A stretch of DNA of 22,955 bases from positions 1-22,955 of IMG/VR virus record IMGVR_UViG_3300038456_000483. One strand, 5' to 3'. Numbering within the stretch: the stretch's first letter is position 1; each line of letters starts with the position of its first letter. The notes beneath the pieces were generated by a model. It saw only the letters and a list, made by a program, of their open reading frames with translations, was not told the origin of the DNA and searched no databases. Positions 1 to 20,887 of the stretch are shown piece by piece. This DNA comes from a virus. The position numbers and the translations under genes were made by a program.

Positions 1-1221
1 ATGCCGCAGTCTACCAAAAAGAACCCCAAAAACAAACCCGCCAAGCCCCGCTCTGACTTCCCTCTCTTCCCTCATGCCCGCGGCTACTGGGCAAAGAAAA
101 TCCGGGGCAAACTCCATTACTTCGGGAAGATCGCCGACGATCCGGACGGCCAAACCGCTGAAGCCAGGTGGCTTCAAGACAAAACCGAACTGCTCGCCGG
201 CCGCACACCTCGCGTACACCCGGAGGGCTTGACCGTCCGCGAACTAATTGACCGATTTATGGTGGGCAAACGCGACAGGCTCACTAACCAGGAAATCACC
301 GCGAAGCACTTCGCCGAGTTGCACGCAACATGCCGGCGCATTGCCGACGCCTTCGGTCTTGACCGCTTGTGCATCGACCTCGCCGCAGATGACTTCCAGC
401 AACTTCGAAAGGCAGTCGCGAAGGTCTGGGGGCCAATCCGCCTTGGAAACGAAGTTCAGCGAGTCCGCCAGGTGTTCAAGTTCGGCTTTGAGAACGGGCT
501 GCTTGACAAACCTGTCCGCTTTGGTAGCGAGTTCAAGAAACCAACCCGTAAAACCATGCGGCTCAACCGCGCGAGAAACGGCAAGCGCCTCTTCACCGCC
601 GCCGAATTGCAAACGATCATTGGTGCCGCCACGCAACCGATGAAGGCCATGATCTTGCTCGGCATCAATTGCGGGTTCGGCCCCAGTGACGTGGCGAACC
701 TGCCCACCGGCGCCGTCGATCTTACTGCAGGATGGATTGACTACCCGCGGCCGAAAACCGGCATCGACCGCCGCATACCACTTTGGCCCGAAACGGTCAC
801 CGCCATCAAAGCCTCGATCGACAAGCGCCCCGCTGCCAAAGCAGCCGACGCGGCCCGCCTGCTCTTCATCACGAAGCACGGCCACAAATGGGCAAAGGAA
901 GGCGTGAGCGAGCCAGACAAAGAAACCGGCAAAATCACGGTCACCAACAACGTTCCCGTGGTCCAGGAGTGCATCAAACTCCTGAAGCGGCTAAAACTAC
1001 ACCGCCGCGGGATCGGCTTCTACACGCTATGCCACACGTTTGAGACCGAGGCCGGTGGGTCCAAAGACCAGGTTGCCGTCAACGCCATCATGGGGCACGT
1101 AGACGAGACCATGGCCGCCAACTATCGGGAGCGGATCGACGACGCCCGCCTGCAGGCCGTGGTCGATCACGTGCATCGCTGGCTCCGGCCGCCTAAACCA
1201 GAGTCGGACACGCCAGCCTAG
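1..1221 (+). CDS. int: Tyrosine recombinase / phage integrase with degenerate catalytic site
   Basis: This 406-aa protein has the layout of a tyrosine recombinase, which integrates and excises DNA at att sites. A basic N-terminus (residues 1-60) precedes a SAM-like core-binding region (about 75-195) and the catalytic domain (about 195-395). The beta-hairpin lysine is in PKTGIDRRIPL (K252). The box II region reads YTLCHTFETE (341-350), the second histidine is in IMGHVD (H366), and the nucleophile is Y375 in ANYRERI. Box I is GINCGFGPSD (221-230), which has Gly where the classical Arg would be; I associate this form with planctomycete integrases. The box II Arg is Cys344 (codon TGC, 1030-1032), one C-to-T change from CGC. 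Activity is therefore doubtful. The gene starts at the first base of the window, so upstream signals are not visible. It sits at the end of the phage module, as expected for an integrase. The family call is secure; function is not. Confidence 0.92.
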   Translation: MPQSTKKNPKNKPAKPRSDFPLFPHARGYWAKKIRGKLHYFGKIADDPDGQTAEARWLQDKTELLAGRTPRVHPEGLTVRELIDRFMVGKRDRLTNQEITAKHFAELHATCRRIADAFGLDRLCIDLAADDFQQLRKAVAKVWGPIRLGNEVQRVRQVFKFGFENGLLDKPVRFGSEFKKPTRKTMRLNRARNGKRLFTAAELQTIIGAATQPMKAMILLGINCGFGPSDVANLPTGAVDLTAGWIDYPRPKTGIDRRIPLWPETVTAIKASIDKRPAAKAADAARLLFITKHGHKWAKEGVSEPDKETGKITVTNNVPVVQECIKLLKRLKLHRRGIGFYTLCHTFETEAGGSKDQVAVNAIMGHVDETMAANYRERIDDARLQAVVDHVHRWLRPPKPESDTPA

Positions 1222-1973: not shown

Positions 1974-3413
1974 ATGGCCGCTGACTTGGGACCAACACCC
2001 GCGCAAGAAATCTACGCCCGCCGCCAGGGCCGCCGCGGCCTGCTGGACTTCACGACGTACACCAAGCCCGACTACAAGACCAACTGGCATCACGCCGCTC
2101 TCGCCGCGCGGCTCGATCTCGTCGCCGCCGGCCGCTGCCGGCGGCTGATGGTCTTCATGCCCCCGCAGCACGGCAAAAGCGAGCTGGTTTCCCGCCGCTT
2201 TCCCGCCTACATGCTCGGCAAGAAGCCGGAAATGCGGCTCATCCAGGCCAGCCATACTTACGACCTGGCCTGCGCCATGAACCGCGACGTGCAGCGGATC
2301 ATGACCGACGACCCGTATCGTCGACTCTTCCCCAACAGTACCTTGAGCGAGCGATTCAACCGCGACAAGATCGCGGCCCGCCGCACGATGGATCTCTTCG
2401 AGCTGCCCGGCCATCGCGGCAGCCTCCGTTCCGCTGGCGTTGCCAACTCCATCGCCGGCAACCCGGCCGACGGCGCCATCATCGACGACCCATTTGGGAA
2501 ACGCGAGGACGCCGACAGCCCGACCATGCGCCAGAAGGTATGGGACTGGTACACCAACGACCTCTTTACGCGCCTATCGGCCGAGGCCTGGATTGTCCTG
2601 ACCCATACCCGCTGGCACCGCGACGACCTGGCCGGCCGCTTGCTCCGCAAAATGGCCGACCGCGCGGCCGACCAATGGCACATCCTCAGCCTGCCGGCCG
2701 TGAAAGAAGAAGGCCCCGGCGATGCCTGCGACCAGCGCCAGCCGGGCGAGACCCTTTGGCCGCAATTCAAATCGACCGAAGACCTGGCCATCATCCGCCA
2801 GCAGGACGCAAAGGCCTACGCGGCTTTGTATCAGCAGAACCCGAGTGACGCCTCAAACGCCGAATGGCCGCCGGAACTTTTTGGCGAAAGCATTTGGTGC
2901 CAGCCCGAACACTGGCCCAAACACTTTGACTTGCGGGTCTTGTGCCTCGATCCCAGCAAGGGCAAGACCGACAAGACGGGCGATTACTGCGCCATTGTCT
3001 TTCTCGGTGTAAAAGGCGACCTGCTGTACATCGACGCCAAGCTCGAGCGCATCCCTATGGACCAGATTGTGCGGGTCACGCTGGCCATGGCTGCGCAGCA
3101 CAAGCCGCAGATGATCGGCATCGAATCTGTCGCCTTCCAGGAAATGCTGGTCCACGAATTCCGCCGCCAGAGCGGCGCGGCATTCGGCCTGACCTGGCCG
3201 ATCTACGCCATGCAAACCGGGGCAGTGCCCAAGGTGCAGCGGATTCGACGGCTGAGCCAGTACGTGATCAACCGGCAACTCCGCTTCCGGGCCGACTCCC
3301 CTGGCTGCCGCCTGCTTGTGGAACAGATGATTGACTTTCCCCTGGGCGATCACGACGACGGCCCCGACTGCCTGGAAATGTGCGTCCGCCTGCCGTTCGA
3401 GGCCATGAAATGA
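1974..3413 (+). CDS. terL: Phage terminase large subunit (packaging ATPase-nuclease)
   Basis: This 479-aa protein is the DNA-packaging motor. The Walker A-type loop is PPQHGKS (residues 63-69), in the form used by many TerL proteins. The Walker B segment is GAIIDDPF (167-174). The C-terminal RNase H-like nuclease begins at LCLDPSKGK with acidic residue D326, and its later acidic cluster is DHDDGPD (459-465). The length is normal for the family. The start ATG at 1974 has a purine-rich AAGGG close upstream. The gene ends in an ATGA overlap with the portal gene (3410-3413), which implies translational coupling. No small terminase is recognisable upstream; the preceding 350 bp is non-coding and the HTH protein is the only small DNA-binding candidate. 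Confidence 0.95.
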   Translation: MAADLGPTPAQEIYARRQGRRGLLDFTTYTKPDYKTNWHHAALAARLDLVAAGRCRRLMVFMPPQHGKSELVSRRFPAYMLGKKPEMRLIQASHTYDLACAMNRDVQRIMTDDPYRRLFPNSTLSERFNRDKIAARRTMDLFELPGHRGSLRSAGVANSIAGNPADGAIIDDPFGKREDADSPTMRQKVWDWYTNDLFTRLSAEAWIVLTHTRWHRDDLAGRLLRKMADRAADQWHILSLPAVKEEGPGDACDQRQPGETLWPQFKSTEDLAIIRQQDAKAYAALYQQNPSDASNAEWPPELFGESIWCQPEHWPKHFDLRVLCLDPSKGKTDKTGDYCAIVFLGVKGDLLYIDAKLERIPMDQIVRVTLAMAAQHKPQMIGIESVAFQEMLVHEFRRQSGAAFGLTWPIYAMQTGAVPKVQRIRRLSQYVINRQLRFRADSPGCRLLVEQMIDFPLGDHDDGPDCLEMCVRLPFEAMK

Positions 3414-6400
3414 CCGTCGCCGTGCACGAAGCCGAAACGACCGCCAACGCCGCCGCAGGTCAGCAGCAATCCGCGCCGCCGTTGCCGCCGGATGCGCCGG
3501 CCGAACGGATGACCCTAAAACAGCTTACGCGCCGCCTCCGCCTGGCCGAAAGCGCCTGCGACATGTTTGACCAACTGGTCGATATGTCCGACATCGCCAA
3601 TTTCGGCGACCCCGGCGAGAATAACCGGCTCGTGGGGGGCGAACTCACGGACTTGCCAACCGCCTATAGCCGATCGCTGATCTACCCGGGCGCCACGGCA
3701 TGGGCCTACATCAACGAAATCGAGCTTCGCCAGATCCGCGCGCGGACCCGCGTCTTCGGCCAGACCAACCCCTACGCCATCGGCGCCGGCCGGAACCGCA
3801 TCGCCTACACGGTGGGCAATGGCCACACCTACAAAGTCACGCCGCGCGATCCGAGCGTCGGGGGCGACACGGTCGAAGCCGCCCTGACCGTGATTGAAAA
3901 CTTCCGCAAGCGGAACAAGTGGAACAAGCGGCAAAAAGAAACGGTACGGCGACTCGACCGCGACGGCGAGCGATTCTTGCGGCTCTTTATCGACGACAAG
4001 AAAGGCGAGCTCAACGTCCGCTTCGTGGAGCCGCTGGAAATCCAGAACGATCCCAAAGCCACCAGCCACAGCGGCGCTTACTTCGGCATTCAGTTCGCCC
4101 AGGTAGTCGCCGACGAGCCCGGGACCACCGCGGCGGTGTGGGACATCGAAACGCCCACGCACTACTACCTCGTCAACATCGGCACTCTAGGCGAAGTGAT
4201 CAGCCTCCGCGAAAAAGTGCCGGCCGATCAGATGCAGCACCTCAAGGCCAATGTCGATATGACCTGGCCCCGCGGCCTGCCGACCTTTTGGGCCTTGATG
4301 CCCAACATGAACAACGCCATCCAGACGCTGAAGGCCACCGGCAAAATCGTCGAATTTCGCGCCCGCATCGGCATGATCCGCCGGCATATCAACGCCGCCA
4401 AGGAGAGCGTCACGCGGTTTGTCGAGCAGCAGAAGAACGCCAAGGACCGGCCCACGCCCACCGCCAGTAAGTACCCTTACGCGGCGATCATCGACACCAG
4501 CGACGCCACGGAATACCAGTTCCCCGCCGGCACCGTGCCCGTGGACGGCAACGTCGCTGCCATCCAGGCCGAGCTCCGCACCTGCGCGGCCGCCCTGGCC
4601 ATGCCCGAGTACATGCTTTCCGGCGATGCCTCCAACGCCAACTTTTCCAGCACGATGGTTGCCGAAGGCCCGGCCGTGAAGACTTTTGAGGAAATGCAAG
4701 GCGAACTGATCGAAGCCGACGTCGAAATCATGGAGCGGCAATTGGCGATCGCCGCCAAGGCTGGCCTGATCACCAATTCCTCGGGCGACCCGGAGGCCCC
4801 GGATTACGTCCTCAATCTCGTCAAGGTCGAGGCCGAGCCGCCGATCATCAAGCACGAAGACGCCCTCATGGAAGCGCAGGCCGACCAGATTCTCAATCAG
4901 GCCGGCGTACTCAGCAAATCGACATTTGCCGCCCGCCACGGCCTGGAGTGGGCCGACGAAAAGCCGCTCATCGAAGCCGACCAGGCCGAAGACTTGAAGC
5001 GGCAAGCGGCGCAGCAGGCCCTTATGCCGCAGCCCGTCGCAGCGGCCCCTGCCACCGAGGAAAACGTCACCGAGGAAAACGTCACCGAGCAAATTACCAC
5101 CGAGGACTACATCGAACCGACCGCCAGGGGCTGGCTGGTTTGCCGCCGCAACACGGCCGGCCGATTGCTCTACAGTTGCCACCGCGCGACACTCCCCGCG
5201 GCGATGCAGGCCTTGCAGGAGTACGACGAGAACCAGCCACGGCACGCCGCCGGCACGGCAGAGGGCGGCCGGTTCAAAAGACTAGATGACAACGACCCCG
5301 ACGACACAGACACGCCCTCCGAGAACGACGCCTACCGCGTAGCCGCCCGCGCTATCGCCGCCGGCCAGGCATTGACGGCCAATAGCACGTCGGCGGAAAT
5401 CACCATTGCCGCCCAGGAACACCAGGCGGCAGCCCGCGGATGGAGACTGGCGGGAAACGAAACCGAAGCCGCCAAGCACGACGCCGCCGCCGATGCCCTG
5501 CAAAGCCAGGCCGACCCGGTCTACGCGACCTATTCAGCCATCACACACGGCATGAAAGCGGCCGCCAACACCGCCAGCGACCTCATCACGAGCGGCCGCC
5601 AGGTGATCGACTCCATCCTCAACCTCTGGCAAGCCGACGAACACCCGCTCATCGTCCGCGCCCTGGACATAGGCCACGGCGGGGCCGTGATGATTCACTT
5701 GCCCAACGGCAAGACGATGCTCTTTGACGCCGGCAAAATGGGCGCGCCCTACACGGCATCGGCCACCATCCGCGAGTACCTCGACTGGTATGACCCGCTC
5801 GGCTCGCCCAAGAGCAAGGGCATACTCAGCCCCGACATGAGCGTCCGAATCCATGTCGCCGGCGACGGCACGGTCACAAAGACCTCCGGCCATTTCATCA
5901 ACTACGTGGTCCTCTCGCACCCCGATACCGACCACTACAACGCCCTGCCGGACCTCGTCGCCCCGCAGCCGGCCATGAATCCACGCTGGGGAATCAGCCT
6001 ACCGCACAACGCGGCCAGCATGATCGCCTTCAAAGGTGAACCACCTATAAGCCCGTCAGAGCTTGAACCCCTGGCCGAATTCGAACAGTTCACCGGCGAG
6101 ACCATCACGCCCGAAGAGTACGCCGCGGCCGACGCCGAGGCGCCGCAACGCTACGCCCCGTACGAAAAGCTATCCGACGCCGAATACGCCGCGCAAAACC
6201 CCGAAGGAGTCTACGCCAGCGTCGAAAAAGCAGCCGAGCAGAGGGCGGGCCAGGCAGAGCCAGAACCGGCCCCGTCAAAAGCCGCCCGCATCAACGAAAT
6301 CCGCCGCGAACTGAACCGCATCAAAGAGCGCCGCGACCACACCCCGCCGGCCCTCAGCGTCGGCGCCGTTTATGTCCCGCCGCAGATGTTCAAGCCCCGC

Positions 6401-7915
6401 GGCATGAATGAGCAGACCCGCTATCTCTACCGCACCCTTAGCGAGACCAAGACCCCGATCCGCGTCATCAGCGACGGCGACACCTTTGACGGCGGCCACG
6501 GCTGCACGGTAAAAGTCCTCAACCCGGCAAAGAACCCTCGCAATGCCGCGAGCAACGCCCGCGCCATCGCGCTGGAAGTAAATTACCAAGGCCGGTCGAT
6601 GCTCCTGACCAGTGACCTGGTTGCCCCGGGCACGGATGACGTGCTCGCCAGGCGGCCGAAGCACTACGACCTGATCACGGCCCCGCACCACGGCAGCGTC
6701 GATCCCATCGCCAGGGCCGACGCCCTCGCCAGGTGGGCCACTCCCAGCAGCACCATCGTGCAGGCCGATCATCGCTGGAATACGGATAAGACCGAAGCCG
6801 AATACGCCAAGTACGGCATCGTCTACCACACGCAGGATGTGGGCAACGTCAAGGCCACGATCACGCACGGCCACACCACCGTGGAAAGCTACCTGCCGCT
6901 CCTTGACGCGCACCAACTCAAGGGCAAGGCTCAGACGTCTGACCAGCCCGCGATTGTCCACCGCTACACGGAAGACGATTACGAGCCCCGCGACTACCAC
7001 GGCCGCTGGACGAAGGACTCCCGGCCGGCGCCCTACGACTACGAAGGCGAAGTCGAGCAGGACGAAGACCGCGCCCGACACGCCCTGTTCCCAGCGACAC
7101 GCAGCCCCCGCGCCAACCCGATGTCACCTGCCGAAACGAATCCACGCAAGCCCGACCCGAAGAACCCGTGGCCGATGCCGCCGTGGGACGACAGCATGGC
7201 CAAGCTAGGTCGCCTGAAAGATCCGGAGAAGATCAAAGCCAAGATCGCCCAGGACCGGGCCAAGTACGAAGCGGAAGTCGCCGAGGAAGCTAACCGGCAT
7301 GGGGTCGTACACGACACGATAAAACCGCTGTACGAATTCAAGCACACGATAGCACGCGAGCTAAACGACCTCACAGGCATCAGCAGCGAGACACCGCTCG
7401 ATATTCCCGGCGCGTTCCGGCCCGACCCGACGCCCACGGCCCCGATCGAAGTCAGCGAAAACGACGCGAAGAACAACGCCGTCAACGAACCTGGCCGGCC
7501 GTTGACCAACGCCGACACCCACGACGACCTCAACGACCCCGATGCCGACGCGCCGCCGGAGAAGCCGGCCTACACCGCTGCCCGCCGGGCACTCAACGAC
7601 GCCATCGACGCCGCCCAGGCCGCCGAGGCGACTTTTGACAACTACAGCCCGACAATCGACACGATCGCCGCCGCCAAGAAGGCAGCCGCCGCCTACCGGG
7701 CGGCAGCCGCCGCTTTTCGCGCATCCGCACGAGACCAACCCGCACACGCCCACACCGCCGCAATCGCCGAACGGACCGCCATGGATTACGATGCCATGGC
7801 CGCCAGCAGCCGGACCTGGATTATCAACAACCATTGGCGCGGCAGCGGCGGCGCCTTTGGGGCAGAGGGCAAGACCGAAACAAACCCGCTGGCCGGCGAA
7901 GGCCACTCACACTAG
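3410..7915 (+). CDS. Giant phage portal protein fused to a ComEC-like metallo-beta-lactamase domain
   Basis: This 1501-aa protein is about three times the usual portal length. Residues 1 to about 540 look like a portal, the ring through which DNA enters the head, supported by the position directly after terL and before the protease. A Thr/Glu linker with a 15-bp tandem repeat follows (5054-5083), then NQPRHAAGTAEGGRF (608-622) and an Ala-rich helical segment. Residues about 750-1165 form a ComEC/Rec2-type metallo-beta-lactamase domain: LDIGHGG (752-758), FDAG, HPDTDH (837-842), TSDL with D1069, and PHHGS (H1093, H1094). All expected metal ligands seem present. A charged insert of roughly 150 residues splits the domain. 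After it come PRDYHGRW (1193-1200), a long polar region and a second Ala-rich helical segment. I chose ATG 3410 because it makes an ATGA overlap with terL; a GTG at 3380 lies inside terL. The domain may cut nucleic acid inside the capsid or be injected, but that is inference. Confidence 0.88.
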   Translation: MTVAVHEAETTANAAAGQQQSAPPLPPDAPAERMTLKQLTRRLRLAESACDMFDQLVDMSDIANFGDPGENNRLVGGELTDLPTAYSRSLIYPGATAWAYINEIELRQIRARTRVFGQTNPYAIGAGRNRIAYTVGNGHTYKVTPRDPSVGGDTVEAALTVIENFRKRNKWNKRQKETVRRLDRDGERFLRLFIDDKKGELNVRFVEPLEIQNDPKATSHSGAYFGIQFAQVVADEPGTTAAVWDIETPTHYYLVNIGTLGEVISLREKVPADQMQHLKANVDMTWPRGLPTFWALMPNMNNAIQTLKATGKIVEFRARIGMIRRHINAAKESVTRFVEQQKNAKDRPTPTASKYPYAAIIDTSDATEYQFPAGTVPVDGNVAAIQAELRTCAAALAMPEYMLSGDASNANFSSTMVAEGPAVKTFEEMQGELIEADVEIMERQLAIAAKAGLITNSSGDPEAPDYVLNLVKVEAEPPIIKHEDALMEAQADQILNQAGVLSKSTFAARHGLEWADEKPLIEADQAEDLKRQAAQQALMPQPVAAAPATEENVTEENVTEQITTEDYIEPTARGWLVCRRNTAGRLLYSCHRATLPAAMQALQEYDENQPRHAAGTAEGGRFKRLDDNDPDDTDTPSENDAYRVAARAIAAGQALTANSTSAEITIAAQEHQAAARGWRLAGNETEAAKHDAAADALQSQADPVYATYSAITHGMKAAANTASDLITSGRQVIDSILNLWQADEHPLIVRALDIGHGGAVMIHLPNGKTMLFDAGKMGAPYTASATIREYLDWYDPLGSPKSKGILSPDMSVRIHVAGDGTVTKTSGHFINYVVLSHPDTDHYNALPDLVAPQPAMNPRWGISLPHNAASMIAFKGEPPISPSELEPLAEFEQFTGETITPEEYAAADAEAPQRYAPYEKLSDAEYAAQNPEGVYASVEKAAEQRAGQAEPEPAPSKAARINEIRRELNRIKERRDHTPPALSVGAVYVPPQMFKPRGMNEQTRYLYRTLSETKTPIRVISDGDTFDGGHGCTVKVLNPAKNPRNAASNARAIALEVNYQGRSMLLTSDLVAPGTDDVLARRPKHYDLITAPHHGSVDPIARADALARWATPSSTIVQADHRWNTDKTEAEYAKYGIVYHTQDVGNVKATITHGHTTVESYLPLLDAHQLKGKAQTSDQPAIVHRYTEDDYEPRDYHGRWTKDSRPAPYDYEGEVEQDEDRARHALFPATRSPRANPMSPAETNPRKPDPKNPWPMPPWDDSMAKLGRLKDPEKIKAKIAQDRAKYEAEVAEEANRHGVVHDTIKPLYEFKHTIARELNDLTGISSETPLDIPGAFRPDPTPTAPIEVSENDAKNNAVNEPGRPLTNADTHDDLNDPDADAPPEKPAYTAARRALNDAIDAAQAAEATFDNYSPTIDTIAAAKKAAAAYRAAAAAFRASARDQPAHAHTAAIAERTAMDYDAMAASSRTWIINNHWRGSGGAFGAEGKTETNPLAGEGHSH
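5054..5083 (+). repeat. 15-bp tandem repeat coding a TEENV linker
   Basis: ACCGAGGAAAACGTC occurs twice in tandem (5054-5068 and 5069-5083), followed by a partial third unit starting ACCGAG at 5084. It encodes TEENVTEENVTE at the boundary between the portal body and its C-terminal extension. This is an in-frame repeat in a flexible linker. Confidence 0.75.
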
Positions 7916-7931
7916 AAAGCACGGCTCACGA

Positions 7932-8126
7932 ATGGCAAAACAGCGAGGCATTGAAGAGAATCAACTCATCCGCCTGGCCCACGAGCGCCTTGACCAGGTC
8001 ATCCGCGAAATGGAAGCCAACAGCGATTCCGGCCAGGCCGGCGTGGAACTCAACTTCCACCGCGGGGTGGTCACATCGATCCACCGCACGCTGAGCGGAT
8101 ACGACAAACCCGCCGGCGGCAGATAA
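7932..8126 (+). CDS. Small helical protein of unknown function between portal and protease
   Basis: This 64-aa protein is not recognised. Residues 1-35 are a charged amphipathic helix (EENQLIRLAHERLDQVIREM), and a more mixed tail ends in KPAGGR. It follows the portal stop by 16 bases in the same direction, with no clear Shine-Dalgarno sequence. I chose ATG 7932 because the frame upstream of it runs through the portal gene and reads as a low-complexity Pro/Arg-rich out-of-frame product. The position between portal and protease is where minor head proteins often lie. It is followed by a strong terminator hairpin and is thus probably the last gene of the first transcript segment. Confidence 0.65.
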   Translation: MAKQRGIEENQLIRLAHERLDQVIREMEANSDSGQAGVELNFHRGVVTSIHRTLSGYDKPAGGR

Positions 8127-8241: not shown

Positions 8242-9444
8242 ATGACCTCAACCGCCCAACTCGAATCGATCCAGGAATACGCCGACAATGCCGGCGCGAG
8301 ACTTCGCGTCGACCGCACCGCCGGCATCATCCCGAGCGTAAAACTCCTCGGCCGAATCTCCAAAAAAGGCCGCGAGTATCCGGCCGCCGTCATGGCCAAG
8401 GCCCTCCCGCTCTACGAAGGCATGCGGGTCAACATCGACCACGTCGATCCCAACCAGCGCCGCAGCCTCCGCGACCGCATCGGGCTGGTCAAAAACGTGA
8501 CGCTCAAGGAAGACGGCCTTTACGGCGACTTCCATTACAACCCCAAGCACGCGCTGGCCGAGCAGATCGCGTGGGACGCCGAGAACGCCCCGCAGAACTT
8601 GGGATTCTCCCATGACACCCGCGGCGGCAGCCGCAACATCGGCGGCAAGGTGGTCGTGGAGTCGATCGACAAAGTGCTTAGCGTCGATCTCGTCGCGAAT
8701 CCGGCCACGACCAGCAGCCTCTTTGAAAGCGAAGACACCATGCCGGACCCCGTACTGCAAGAAATGTGGTCCCCCGAATCACGGCAAGCCGCAGCCAGAG
8801 CCCGAGCCGCCAAGCACGGCGCGGCCGCCCATGCGGCCACTGCGAAATGCGTCGAACTCGATACCCCGATCGACAAGGCCGGCGGCTGCAAAGGTAGCTG
8901 GGACGAACGCGCGGCCGCCCATAAAAAGGCCGGCCAACTAAACCGCCATGCGGCGGCAGCCCACCGCGCCGCCGGCGACCACGCCGCCGCCGCCGCACAC
9001 GACGCCATGGCCGCTAAGCACGAAGCCACGCACCACCAAATGACGGACGAAGACCCCGCCGACAAAGCCGAGCGCGACCAGCAATCCGAAGGAGACCTTT
9101 CCGTGACCGACAAAGAAGAACTAACCGCCCTCCGCGCCGAGAAGGCCAACCGCATCTTGCAGGAGACGATCACCAGCGAACTCAAGACCGCTGGCCTTGA
9201 TCCAACCAATAAGGCCGCCGTCAGCGACGTCTTCATGGAGGACCTTGTCGCTACGGCCGACGCCAACAAGCGGCAAGCCAAGATCACGGACCGCAAGGCC
9301 CTCCTGACCGGAACCGGAACCGAAACCCACCGTCAAGCGGCCTACTCGCCCAGCCCGCTCGTGGAATCGGCCGACGCCAATCTCCAAAACGTGCCGCCAG
9401 CGACAGCCCCACTGCCCGACCGCATCCGCCGTTTCGCCAAGTAA
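8242..9444 (+). CDS. Capsid maturation (prohead) protease with scaffold-like C-terminal region
   Basis: This 400-aa protein has an N-terminal domain (about 1-160) resembling phage prohead proteases, which cleave scaffold and capsid proteins during head maturation. The visible family features are KLLGRISKKGREYP, LYEGMRVNIDHVDP (H67), a YNPKHALAEQ segment with AENAPQNLGFSHD (S123, H124), and VLSVDLVANPATTSSLFES. I infer that H67 and the S123/H124 pair are close to the active site. An Ala/His-rich helical region follows (about 180-275), and then a charged helical scaffold-like region (about 288-365). The C-terminus ends with PLPDRIRRFAK. The order portal, protease, decoration, capsid is classical. 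The start directly follows a terminator T-tract and has no Shine-Dalgarno sequence, so either the message is leaderless or the true start is downstream. Confidence 0.85.
   Translation: MTSTAQLESIQEYADNAGARLRVDRTAGIIPSVKLLGRISKKGREYPAAVMAKALPLYEGMRVNIDHVDPNQRRSLRDRIGLVKNVTLKEDGLYGDFHYNPKHALAEQIAWDAENAPQNLGFSHDTRGGSRNIGGKVVVESIDKVLSVDLVANPATTSSLFESEDTMPDPVLQEMWSPESRQAAARARAAKHGAAAHAATAKCVELDTPIDKAGGCKGSWDERAAAHKKAGQLNRHAAAAHRAAGDHAAAAAHDAMAAKHEATHHQMTDEDPADKAERDQQSEGDLSVTDKEELTALRAEKANRILQETITSELKTAGLDPTNKAAVSDVFMEDLVATADANKRQAKITDRKALLTGTGTETHRQAAYSPSPLVESADANLQNVPPATAPLPDRIRRFAK
9088..9105 (+). promoter_or_regulatory. Strong internal ribosome binding site with GTG start inside the protease gene
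   Basis: GAAGGAG (9088-9094) lies eight bases before an in-frame GTG (9103-9105). This is one of the best Shine-Dalgarno and start combinations in the window, while most annotated starts here have weak or no such sequence. It points to a separately translated C-terminal product. Confidence 0.5.
9103..9444 (+). CDS. Putative internally initiated scaffold protein nested in the protease gene
   Basis: The reading frame of the protease can restart at GTG 9103 (protease residue 288) and gives a 113-aa product. It begins with TDKEELTALRAEKANRILQ, a charged helix suited to coiled-coil formation, and ends with the protease C-terminus. In lambda, the scaffold Nu3 is made in this way from inside the protease gene C, and many tailed phages share the plan. 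The evidence here is the internal Shine-Dalgarno sequence, the change from Ala/His-rich to charged helical sequence at that point, and the absence of another scaffold gene. It shares its frame with the parent gene, so coding statistics cannot separate the two. Confidence 0.45.
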   Translation: MTDKEELTALRAEKANRILQETITSELKTAGLDPTNKAAVSDVFMEDLVATADANKRQAKITDRKALLTGTGTETHRQAAYSPSPLVESADANLQNVPPATAPLPDRIRRFAK

Positions 9445-19852: not shown

Positions 19853-20887
19853 ATGCACATCTTCGTACTCGGCTACCCCGGCGCCATGGGCGGGGCCAAC
19901 ACCGAAGCCTGGCACACCGCAAAGCTATGGCGCGCGCACGGCATCGACGTAACCTTTATCCCCACGTGGCTCCCCGACCAGAAGGCAAAGCCCAAGCTCG
20001 ACGCCATCGGTTGCAGAACGCTGATCGCCGAAAGCCGGGACCACCTGGCCAAAGTGCCCGGCCTGGCCGGCAGCGTAGTCGTGGCCTTTTGCAATAGCCA
20101 GGCGATGCTGGAGCGGAAGACGCTCAAGGAGCTCGGCTGCCGCATGGTATGGGTCAACTGCATGACGTTCCTCTTCGACCAGGAGCGTTTTGCCGCCAAG
20201 ACCTACGGACCGCCCGAGGCCTACGTTTTCCAATCCGAGTACCAGCGCGGTGTACTGGAGCCGCTCCTCATGCCACTCGGATACAACGCTCGACTCGGGC
20301 ACCTCATCCGCGGCGCTTTCGCTTTCGACGAAATCCCCTACGCCCCGCGGCCCCACCCGCCGCAGCAGGACTTTTGGATCGGACGCCTGGCCCGCCCCGA
20401 CCTCGACAAATGGAGCTCCACTCACTGGAAGATTCTCGGCCAGGTCCCCTACCCGGCCCGCCGCGGCCTGGCGATGGGATGGAACGACGCCCTCGACCGC
20501 AAATGCGGACCGCGGCCGGCATGGGCCGAGACCCTCGCCCCGCAGCAGATTGCGGCCCCCGACTTCCTCGGCCGTTGCCACGCCATGCTGGGCCTAAACG
20601 GCGGCGCGCGGGAGAACTGGCCCCGCATCGGCCTGGAGGCCATGGCCGCCGGCGTGCCGCTGGTTTGCCAGAACGAATGGGGCTGGAAGGAAATGATCCA
20701 AGACGGCCTAACCGGCTTTCTCACCAACACCGACGAGGAAATGGCCTACCGCCTGGCCCAGCTCACCTACGACGAAGACCTCCGGCGAACGATCATCGAG
20801 CGCGCCGCGGCGGCCGTCAAAGACCTGGCCTGCCCCGAGCGGATCGGTGCGCAGTGGACCCGCCTCTTTAAATCGCTAGGAGCCTGA
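19853..20887 (+). CDS. GT-B fold glycosyltransferase (GT4-like)
   Basis: This 344-aa protein transfers sugar from a nucleotide-sugar donor. The N-terminus MHIFVLGYPGAMGGANTEAW has the Gly-rich loop of GT-B acceptor domains. The C-terminal donor domain has ENWPRIGLEAMAAGVPLVC, with the E-x7-E pair at E254 and E262, and WKEMIQDGLTGFL, which matches the GT4 family. Residues HRY-type donors are not resolvable by eye. A Shine-Dalgarno GGAG (19842-19845) lies seven bases upstream, inside the end of the fibre-like gene. Phage GTs can modify virion proteins, DNA or host surface sugars; here the position after tail genes suggests tail or receptor glycans. Confidence 0.85.
   Translation: MHIFVLGYPGAMGGANTEAWHTAKLWRAHGIDVTFIPTWLPDQKAKPKLDAIGCRTLIAESRDHLAKVPGLAGSVVVAFCNSQAMLERKTLKELGCRMVWVNCMTFLFDQERFAAKTYGPPEAYVFQSEYQRGVLEPLLMPLGYNARLGHLIRGAFAFDEIPYAPRPHPPQQDFWIGRLARPDLDKWSSTHWKILGQVPYPARRGLAMGWNDALDRKCGPRPAWAETLAPQQIAAPDFLGRCHAMLGLNGGARENWPRIGLEAMAAGVPLVCQNEWGWKEMIQDGLTGFLTNTDEEMAYRLAQLTYDEDLRRTIIERAAAAVKDLACPERIGAQWTRLFKSLGA

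Follow-up and report, generated by a model that had tools for sequence, protein, structure and literature searches.

The virus record IMGVR_UViG_3300038456_000483 contains, within the stretch of 22,955 bases analysed here (the window), a gene for a phage portal protein that runs on far beyond the usual end of a portal and through a metallo-beta-lactamase (MBL) domain resembling that of the competence protein ComEC. This locus raises the question of whether a portal has really been joined to such an enzyme and, if so, what the enzyme would do there. The initial annotation had described a portal fused to a catalytically complete ComEC-like MBL domain, arranged as a ring at the DNA entry channel. 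The fusion and its active-site residues were recovered in our analysis, whereas the position of the ring was not.

First of all, the fusion is the product of one gene. Its open reading frame (ORF) of 1501 amino acids (aa) is unbroken from the ATG at 3410 to the stop codon at 7913-7915, with no internal stops, and its start overlaps the stop codon of the large terminase gene located upstream (phrog_38, 6.4e-94) as ATGA (3410-3413). The G+C content at third codon positions (GC3) was even along the gene (0.83 in the portal, 0.81 in the linker, 0.82 in the MBL and 0.79 in the C-terminus) and resembled that of the neighbouring genes, which were also matched by a codon preference that was positive throughout in this frame only. 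The ATG codons were scanned for an internal start that could give a separate MBL product. After aa 400, the sole in-frame ATG with a Shine-Dalgarno-like site is that of aa 1064 and, as it sits within the MBL domain, such a product looks unlikely.

By profile matches and by predicted fold, aa ~30-530 are a lambda-type portal. The match to PF05136 covered aa 105-430 (2.9e-16; 60 bits against a curated cut-off of 32.9) and that to phrog_21 (portal) aa 99-556 (5.6e-31), and ~120 homologous portals, with E-values down to 0, were among the matches listed. When an AF2 model of the portal (58 aligned sequences, pLDDT 77) was submitted to Foldseek, the first match was the lambda portal (8xow, 9.7e-14). 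In addition, gene order and homologues place the gene after the large terminase and before the protease and capsid genes.

The second domain, aa ~745-1165, is a MBL of ComEC/Rec2 type by remote homology. Residues 742-1166 matched the ComEC models NF008580 (4.8e-8) and TIGR00361 ComEC_Rec2 (2.3e-7), and the relation is considered remote because both scores fall under the cut-offs curated for complete ComEC proteins; the two models were matched in the MBL part only, with nothing of the ComEC channel domain. A phmmer search with the whole protein gave the ComEC MBL 9ic4 ("Competence protein", 9e-4), and the same entry, the ComEC nuclease domain, was the best match among 350,542 PDB chains (2.5e-7) in a Foldseek search with an AF2 model of low confidence (pLDDT 39, pTM 0.45). 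A profile (A5) run against PDB also gave 9ic4 (3e-20), which is not independent proof since its alignment includes three other MBL proteins.

The active-site residues agree with this assignment. In the ComEC of M. glycerini they are H598-x-D600-x-D602-H603, H725 and S728 (PMC12455585), and ComEC proteins have an Asn in motif III and an Asp in motif IV (PMC8579336). HPDTDH, D1069 and HHGS were found at exactly the residues given by the initial annotation, and all the ComEC metal-ligand positions are occupied (H837, D839, D841, H842, N1049, D1069 and H1093), S1096 being also present; the set of ligand residues is thus complete. For MBL domains of ComEC, Mn2+-dependent nuclease activity and a general phosphodiesterase activity have been described (PMC8579336, PMC12455585). 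The window MBL shares with that of M. glycerini (9ic4) the fold, HxDxDH, the Asn of motif III, the Asp of motif IV and HHGS, but it differs in lacking an OB fold and a membrane channel domain, in bearing an insertion of ~130 residues after motif II and in being attached to a portal. The nearest MBLs among those found are stand-alone proteins with SHPDxDHYN (L192 and L194); both halves of the domain scored 8-9 standard deviations (SD) above shuffled sequences against L192, and the first half only against L194 (14 SD).

The MBL was added where related phages carry other domains on their portals. The portal family was retrieved from IMG/VR with a degenerate pattern of the NFSSTMVAEGP stretch of the portal. 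Its conserved core stops near aa 530 and relatives end ~20 aa later, which leaves ~960 residues extra here, as initially estimated. The closest portals among the matches listed, those of L133 and L046/L136, are 66-68% identical to the window portal and are followed by the same genes (protease, decoration protein and major capsid protein), and in L133 and L046 they end 3-5 aa past the core. Because portals so similar, in the same gene order, stop normally, the MBL is a lineage-specific addition. Among the matches listed, 163 relatives had complete 3' ends, with a median tail of 20 residues and tails of more than 100 residues in 12 and of more than 250 in five, in a sample that includes near-identical records. 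These long tails are unlike in kind. The portal of L128 (145-2766, minus strand) ends in an ADP-ribosyltransferase (ART; PF03496, 2.8e-13; phrog_802, Alt-like, 1.4e-5) and that of L144 (1597-3717, plus strand) in a C39-like peptidase (PF13529, 7.4e-10) whose phrog matches are endolysins. The tails of L108 and L170 gave a weak transglutaminase-like match (0.0035, below the cut-off), and the extensions of L030, L114 and L143 matched no known family in the domain profile search. Extended portals fell in several places of a tree comprising 154 portals. Sequence comparison therefore identifies the portal C-terminus as a slot receiving unrelated domains, a feature that the initial annotation had missed, and the family has the arrangement of a polymorphic effector carrier, in which a conserved carrier bears unrelated C-terminal domains across relatives. 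A module shared with other virion proteins lies in the middle part of the L128 protein, as shown by its matches to phrog_2859 and to phrog_595 (head maturation protease). At the other end of the portal, stop-to-stop frames in L025 (2729-4978), L051 (1599-4154) and L079 (903-3287) have 280-400 residues ahead of it, whose translation as an N-terminal extension is putative.

Outside the MBL, the extension contains two Ala/His-rich helical modules and short tag-like motifs of PR..G..W/F type that flank the enzyme domain. Motifs comparable to the first of them start the extensions of L108, L030 and L114. Comparison of aa 556-745 with aa 1166-1501 gave a score of 86 against 43±7 for shuffled sequences (maximum 67 of 300 shuffles), which suggests duplication of the helical module. 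Weak nitrite-reductase matches to aa 1135-1212 were put down to chance.

Further portal-MBL fusions were then sought. Neither the whole protein nor the MBL, as single-sequence queries, found a relative in IMG/VR, genome contigs or phage records, and the portal region found in these collections only distant portals (E-values of 3e-3 and weaker). The three closest portals, used in alignment-driven scans, retrieved no new viruses and no prokaryote genomes and, for this reason, the host, including the idea of a planctomycete, was left without assignment. Two motif scans for ComEC-like MBLs turned up six further loci, whose MBL ORFs reach ~400 aa at most, as stand-alone proteins or fragments, and are in no case fused to a portal. 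The 37 family records matched neither a ComEC model nor the window MBL as query, the latter in a search without positive control. Thus, no portal-MBL fusion was described in the papers searched and no other was present in the collections searched. Novelty is therefore restricted to the MBL: fusion of a portal to an enzyme is already known in general, which the initial annotation had missed, and the MBL version would be the first such found, judging from these comparisons.

The known class comprises the polyvalent proteins (PMC5512222) and the fusions of a NAD-ADPr survey (PMC9503650), in which, as here, a head protein of the portal-terminase module is joined to an enzyme in one polypeptide. 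The portal fusions described there carry ART, Nudix, 2H, PBECR or InPase domains, MBL being mentioned in neither work, and RNase is also among the enzymes known on portals. The present fusion differs in the size of its cargo (~960 aa), which includes helical modules and tag-like motifs. In temperate phages, MuF polymorphic toxins (PMC5576092) are likewise head proteins with a variable C-terminal domain; in our case, however, the carrier is the portal and not a MuF protein, the domains are few and toxicity is putative. Finally, a stretch of phrog_7043 matched the window MBL (3.5e-7). By its annotation this family belongs to the virion and so offers a precedent for a MBL there, although it is annotated as tail protein and not portal.

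All these data are best explained, with a probability of about one half, by a lambda-type portal that acquired a C-terminal cargo of ~960 residues bearing a ComEC-type phosphodiesterase or nuclease, which would be packaged in the head and act in the new host cell. The C-terminal element of lambda gpB is the crown, residues 453-511 (PMC10721106), and the portal crown touches packaged DNA (PMC7617512). Since in lambda-type portals the crown precedes the C-terminus, the extension should lie inside the head and not at the outer DNA entry, where the initial annotation had put it, and twelve copies of it would be incorporated in the head interior. Their volume (12 copies of ~105 kDa, ~1,500 nm3 by arithmetic) is a minor share of a 60-nm head. 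Published portal and MuF fusions to ART, Nudix, 2H, PBECR and InPase have been read as head-packaged, injected enzymes (PMC5512222, PMC9503650) and, by analogy, the MBL may be such a cargo. The next conserved gene probably encodes a head maturation protease plus scaffold, since H67, S123 and D149 are invariant across its homologues and one of these matched phrog_15531 (head maturation protease, 1e-5). This adjoining protease may release some or all of the extensions by cleavage. The enzyme would then exit with the DNA, or work at the portal during ejection, and in the newly infected cell it could hydrolyse nucleic acid or a nucleotide signal, weakening host defence or rival DNA.

Several points weigh against this explanation. 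The evidence for packaging, cleavage and activity is indirect, and few relatives bear extensions. The portal ring remains in the particle, so that delivery requires a putative release step. In addition, the fusion is a singleton, which puts conservation of its active site under selection beyond test. Finally, a DNase beside the packed genome would have to stay inactive in the virion and, because of this, nucleotide or RNA substrates are also given weight.

Among the other explanations, it seems unlikely that the extension is structural or DNA-organising, the MBL fold and helical modules building an inner core at the portal or binding DNA, with catalysis irrelevant or lost. The abundance of duplicated Ala/His-rich modules, the contact of the crown with DNA and the lack, in a singleton, of any check on active-site selection would agree with such a role; however, every ligand position is retained, needlessly for a structural part, and close relatives sharing the head genes manage without the extension. 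Somewhat less probable still is an Apyc1-like phosphodiesterase that would degrade cyclic or oligonucleotide immune signals, and not DNA, at the start of infection. Phage MBL-fold enzymes cleaving immune cyclic nucleotides exist (PMC9117128), portal-fused 2H domains have been assigned the same role (PMC9503650), the ComEC domain has general phosphodiesterase activity (PMC8579336) and the packed phage DNA would be spared. Nevertheless, motif II has the ComEC form HxDxDH and not the HxHxDH of Apyc1 and RNase Z-like phosphodiesterases, and the nearest structures are ComEC, neither RNase Z nor Apyc1. A MBL ring processing DNA during packaging, for instance by end trimming or cutting, is improbable: although ComEC domains work on DNA entering a channel (PMC12455585, PMC8579336) and DNA is packaged through the portal, the C-terminus lies inwards, on the side of the crown, portals 66-68% identical with the same module do without the MBL, and a large terminase is already there for cutting DNA. 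Lastly, a contig joining two unrelated pieces, as the absence of a second copy from all collections searched might suggest, is very improbable given 961 codons in frame with uniform GC3 and codon use, and given that the fusion gene is flanked by homologues from the same module, the terminase upstream and the protease, decoration and capsid genes downstream.

Extending the head-packaged enzyme explanation to the whole family, the portal C-terminus past the crown might generally serve as the slot at which exchangeable head-packaged enzymes dock, with a short tag as mark and release by the maturation protease; the nuclease-type MBL cargo would be kept in a head filled with DNA and stay silent until ejection. 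This generalisation is considered possible but doubtful.

As regards the rest of the window, a tyrosine integrase gene (1-1221, plus strand; PF00589, 2.5e-8) lies at its edge, upstream of the terminase, and suggests a temperate phage. An ORF of ~65 codons (7932-8126, plus strand) between the portal-MBL and protease genes has a 51% identical counterpart in L058. At aa ~166-285 the protease-scaffold protein has an Ala/His-rich insert that L133 lacks; its resemblance to the helical modules of the extension gave a score (72 against 50±7, maximum 73 of 300 shuffles) not clearly beyond composition. The structural genes are closed by a GT4 glycosyltransferase (19853-20887, plus strand; PF00534, 3.5e-9) with 41% identity to one in L130. 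Coordinates of the features are listed in Table 1.

Table 1. Features of the portal-MBL gene, its neighbour and related portals; positions are those of the window unless a locus is named.
Feature	Residues (aa)	Position	Strand	Basis
Portal-MBL fusion gene	1-1501	3410..7915	+	single open frame; uniform GC3 and codon use
Lambda-family portal core	30-530	3497..4999	+	PF05136, phrog_21, Foldseek lambda portal
C-terminal extension	531-1501	5000..7912	+	closest portals without it
Tag-like motif 1, YDENQPRHAAGTAEGGRF	604-622	5219..5275	+	sequence
Ala/His-rich helical module 1	~640-700	5327..5509	+	likeness to C-terminal region beyond shuffles
ComEC/Rec2-type MBL domain	745-1165	5642..6904	+	NF008580, TIGR00361, Foldseek 9ic4
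Motif II HPDTDH, ComEC form HxDxDH	837-842	5918..5935	+	sequence; PMC12455585
Charged, mostly helical insertion in MBL	~855-985	5972..6364	+	gap region in alignment with other MBLs
Motif III N1049	1049	6554-6556	+	sequence
Motif IV D1069	1069	6614..6616	+	sequence; motifs as in PMC8579336
Motif V HHGS	1093-1096	6686..6697	+	equivalent to H725 and S728 of M. glycerini ComEC
Tag-like motif 2, DDYEPRDYHGRWT	1189-1202	6974..7015	+	sequence
Ala/His-rich helical module 2	~1385-1465	7562..7804	+	sequence comparison
Tag-like motif 3 (weaker), NHWRGSGGAFGAE	1473-1485	7826..7864	+	sequence
Probable head maturation protease and scaffold		8242..9444	+	conserved family-wide, next conserved gene after portal
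Portals with C-terminal extensions of 425-520 residues, short tag-like motif at start		L030:4357-7203, L114:2-2257, L143:398-3100	all +	

If the MBL domain is active and packaged, the copies of a ComEC-like nuclease or phosphodiesterase carried by this phage would be fixed in number and located at the DNA exit of the head, and how the packed genome escapes cutting by the enzyme becomes a testable question. Moreover, the ART and the C39 peptidase that relatives carry at this position suggest that the portal tails of environmental phages are a source of injected effectors and have been read too little in this respect.

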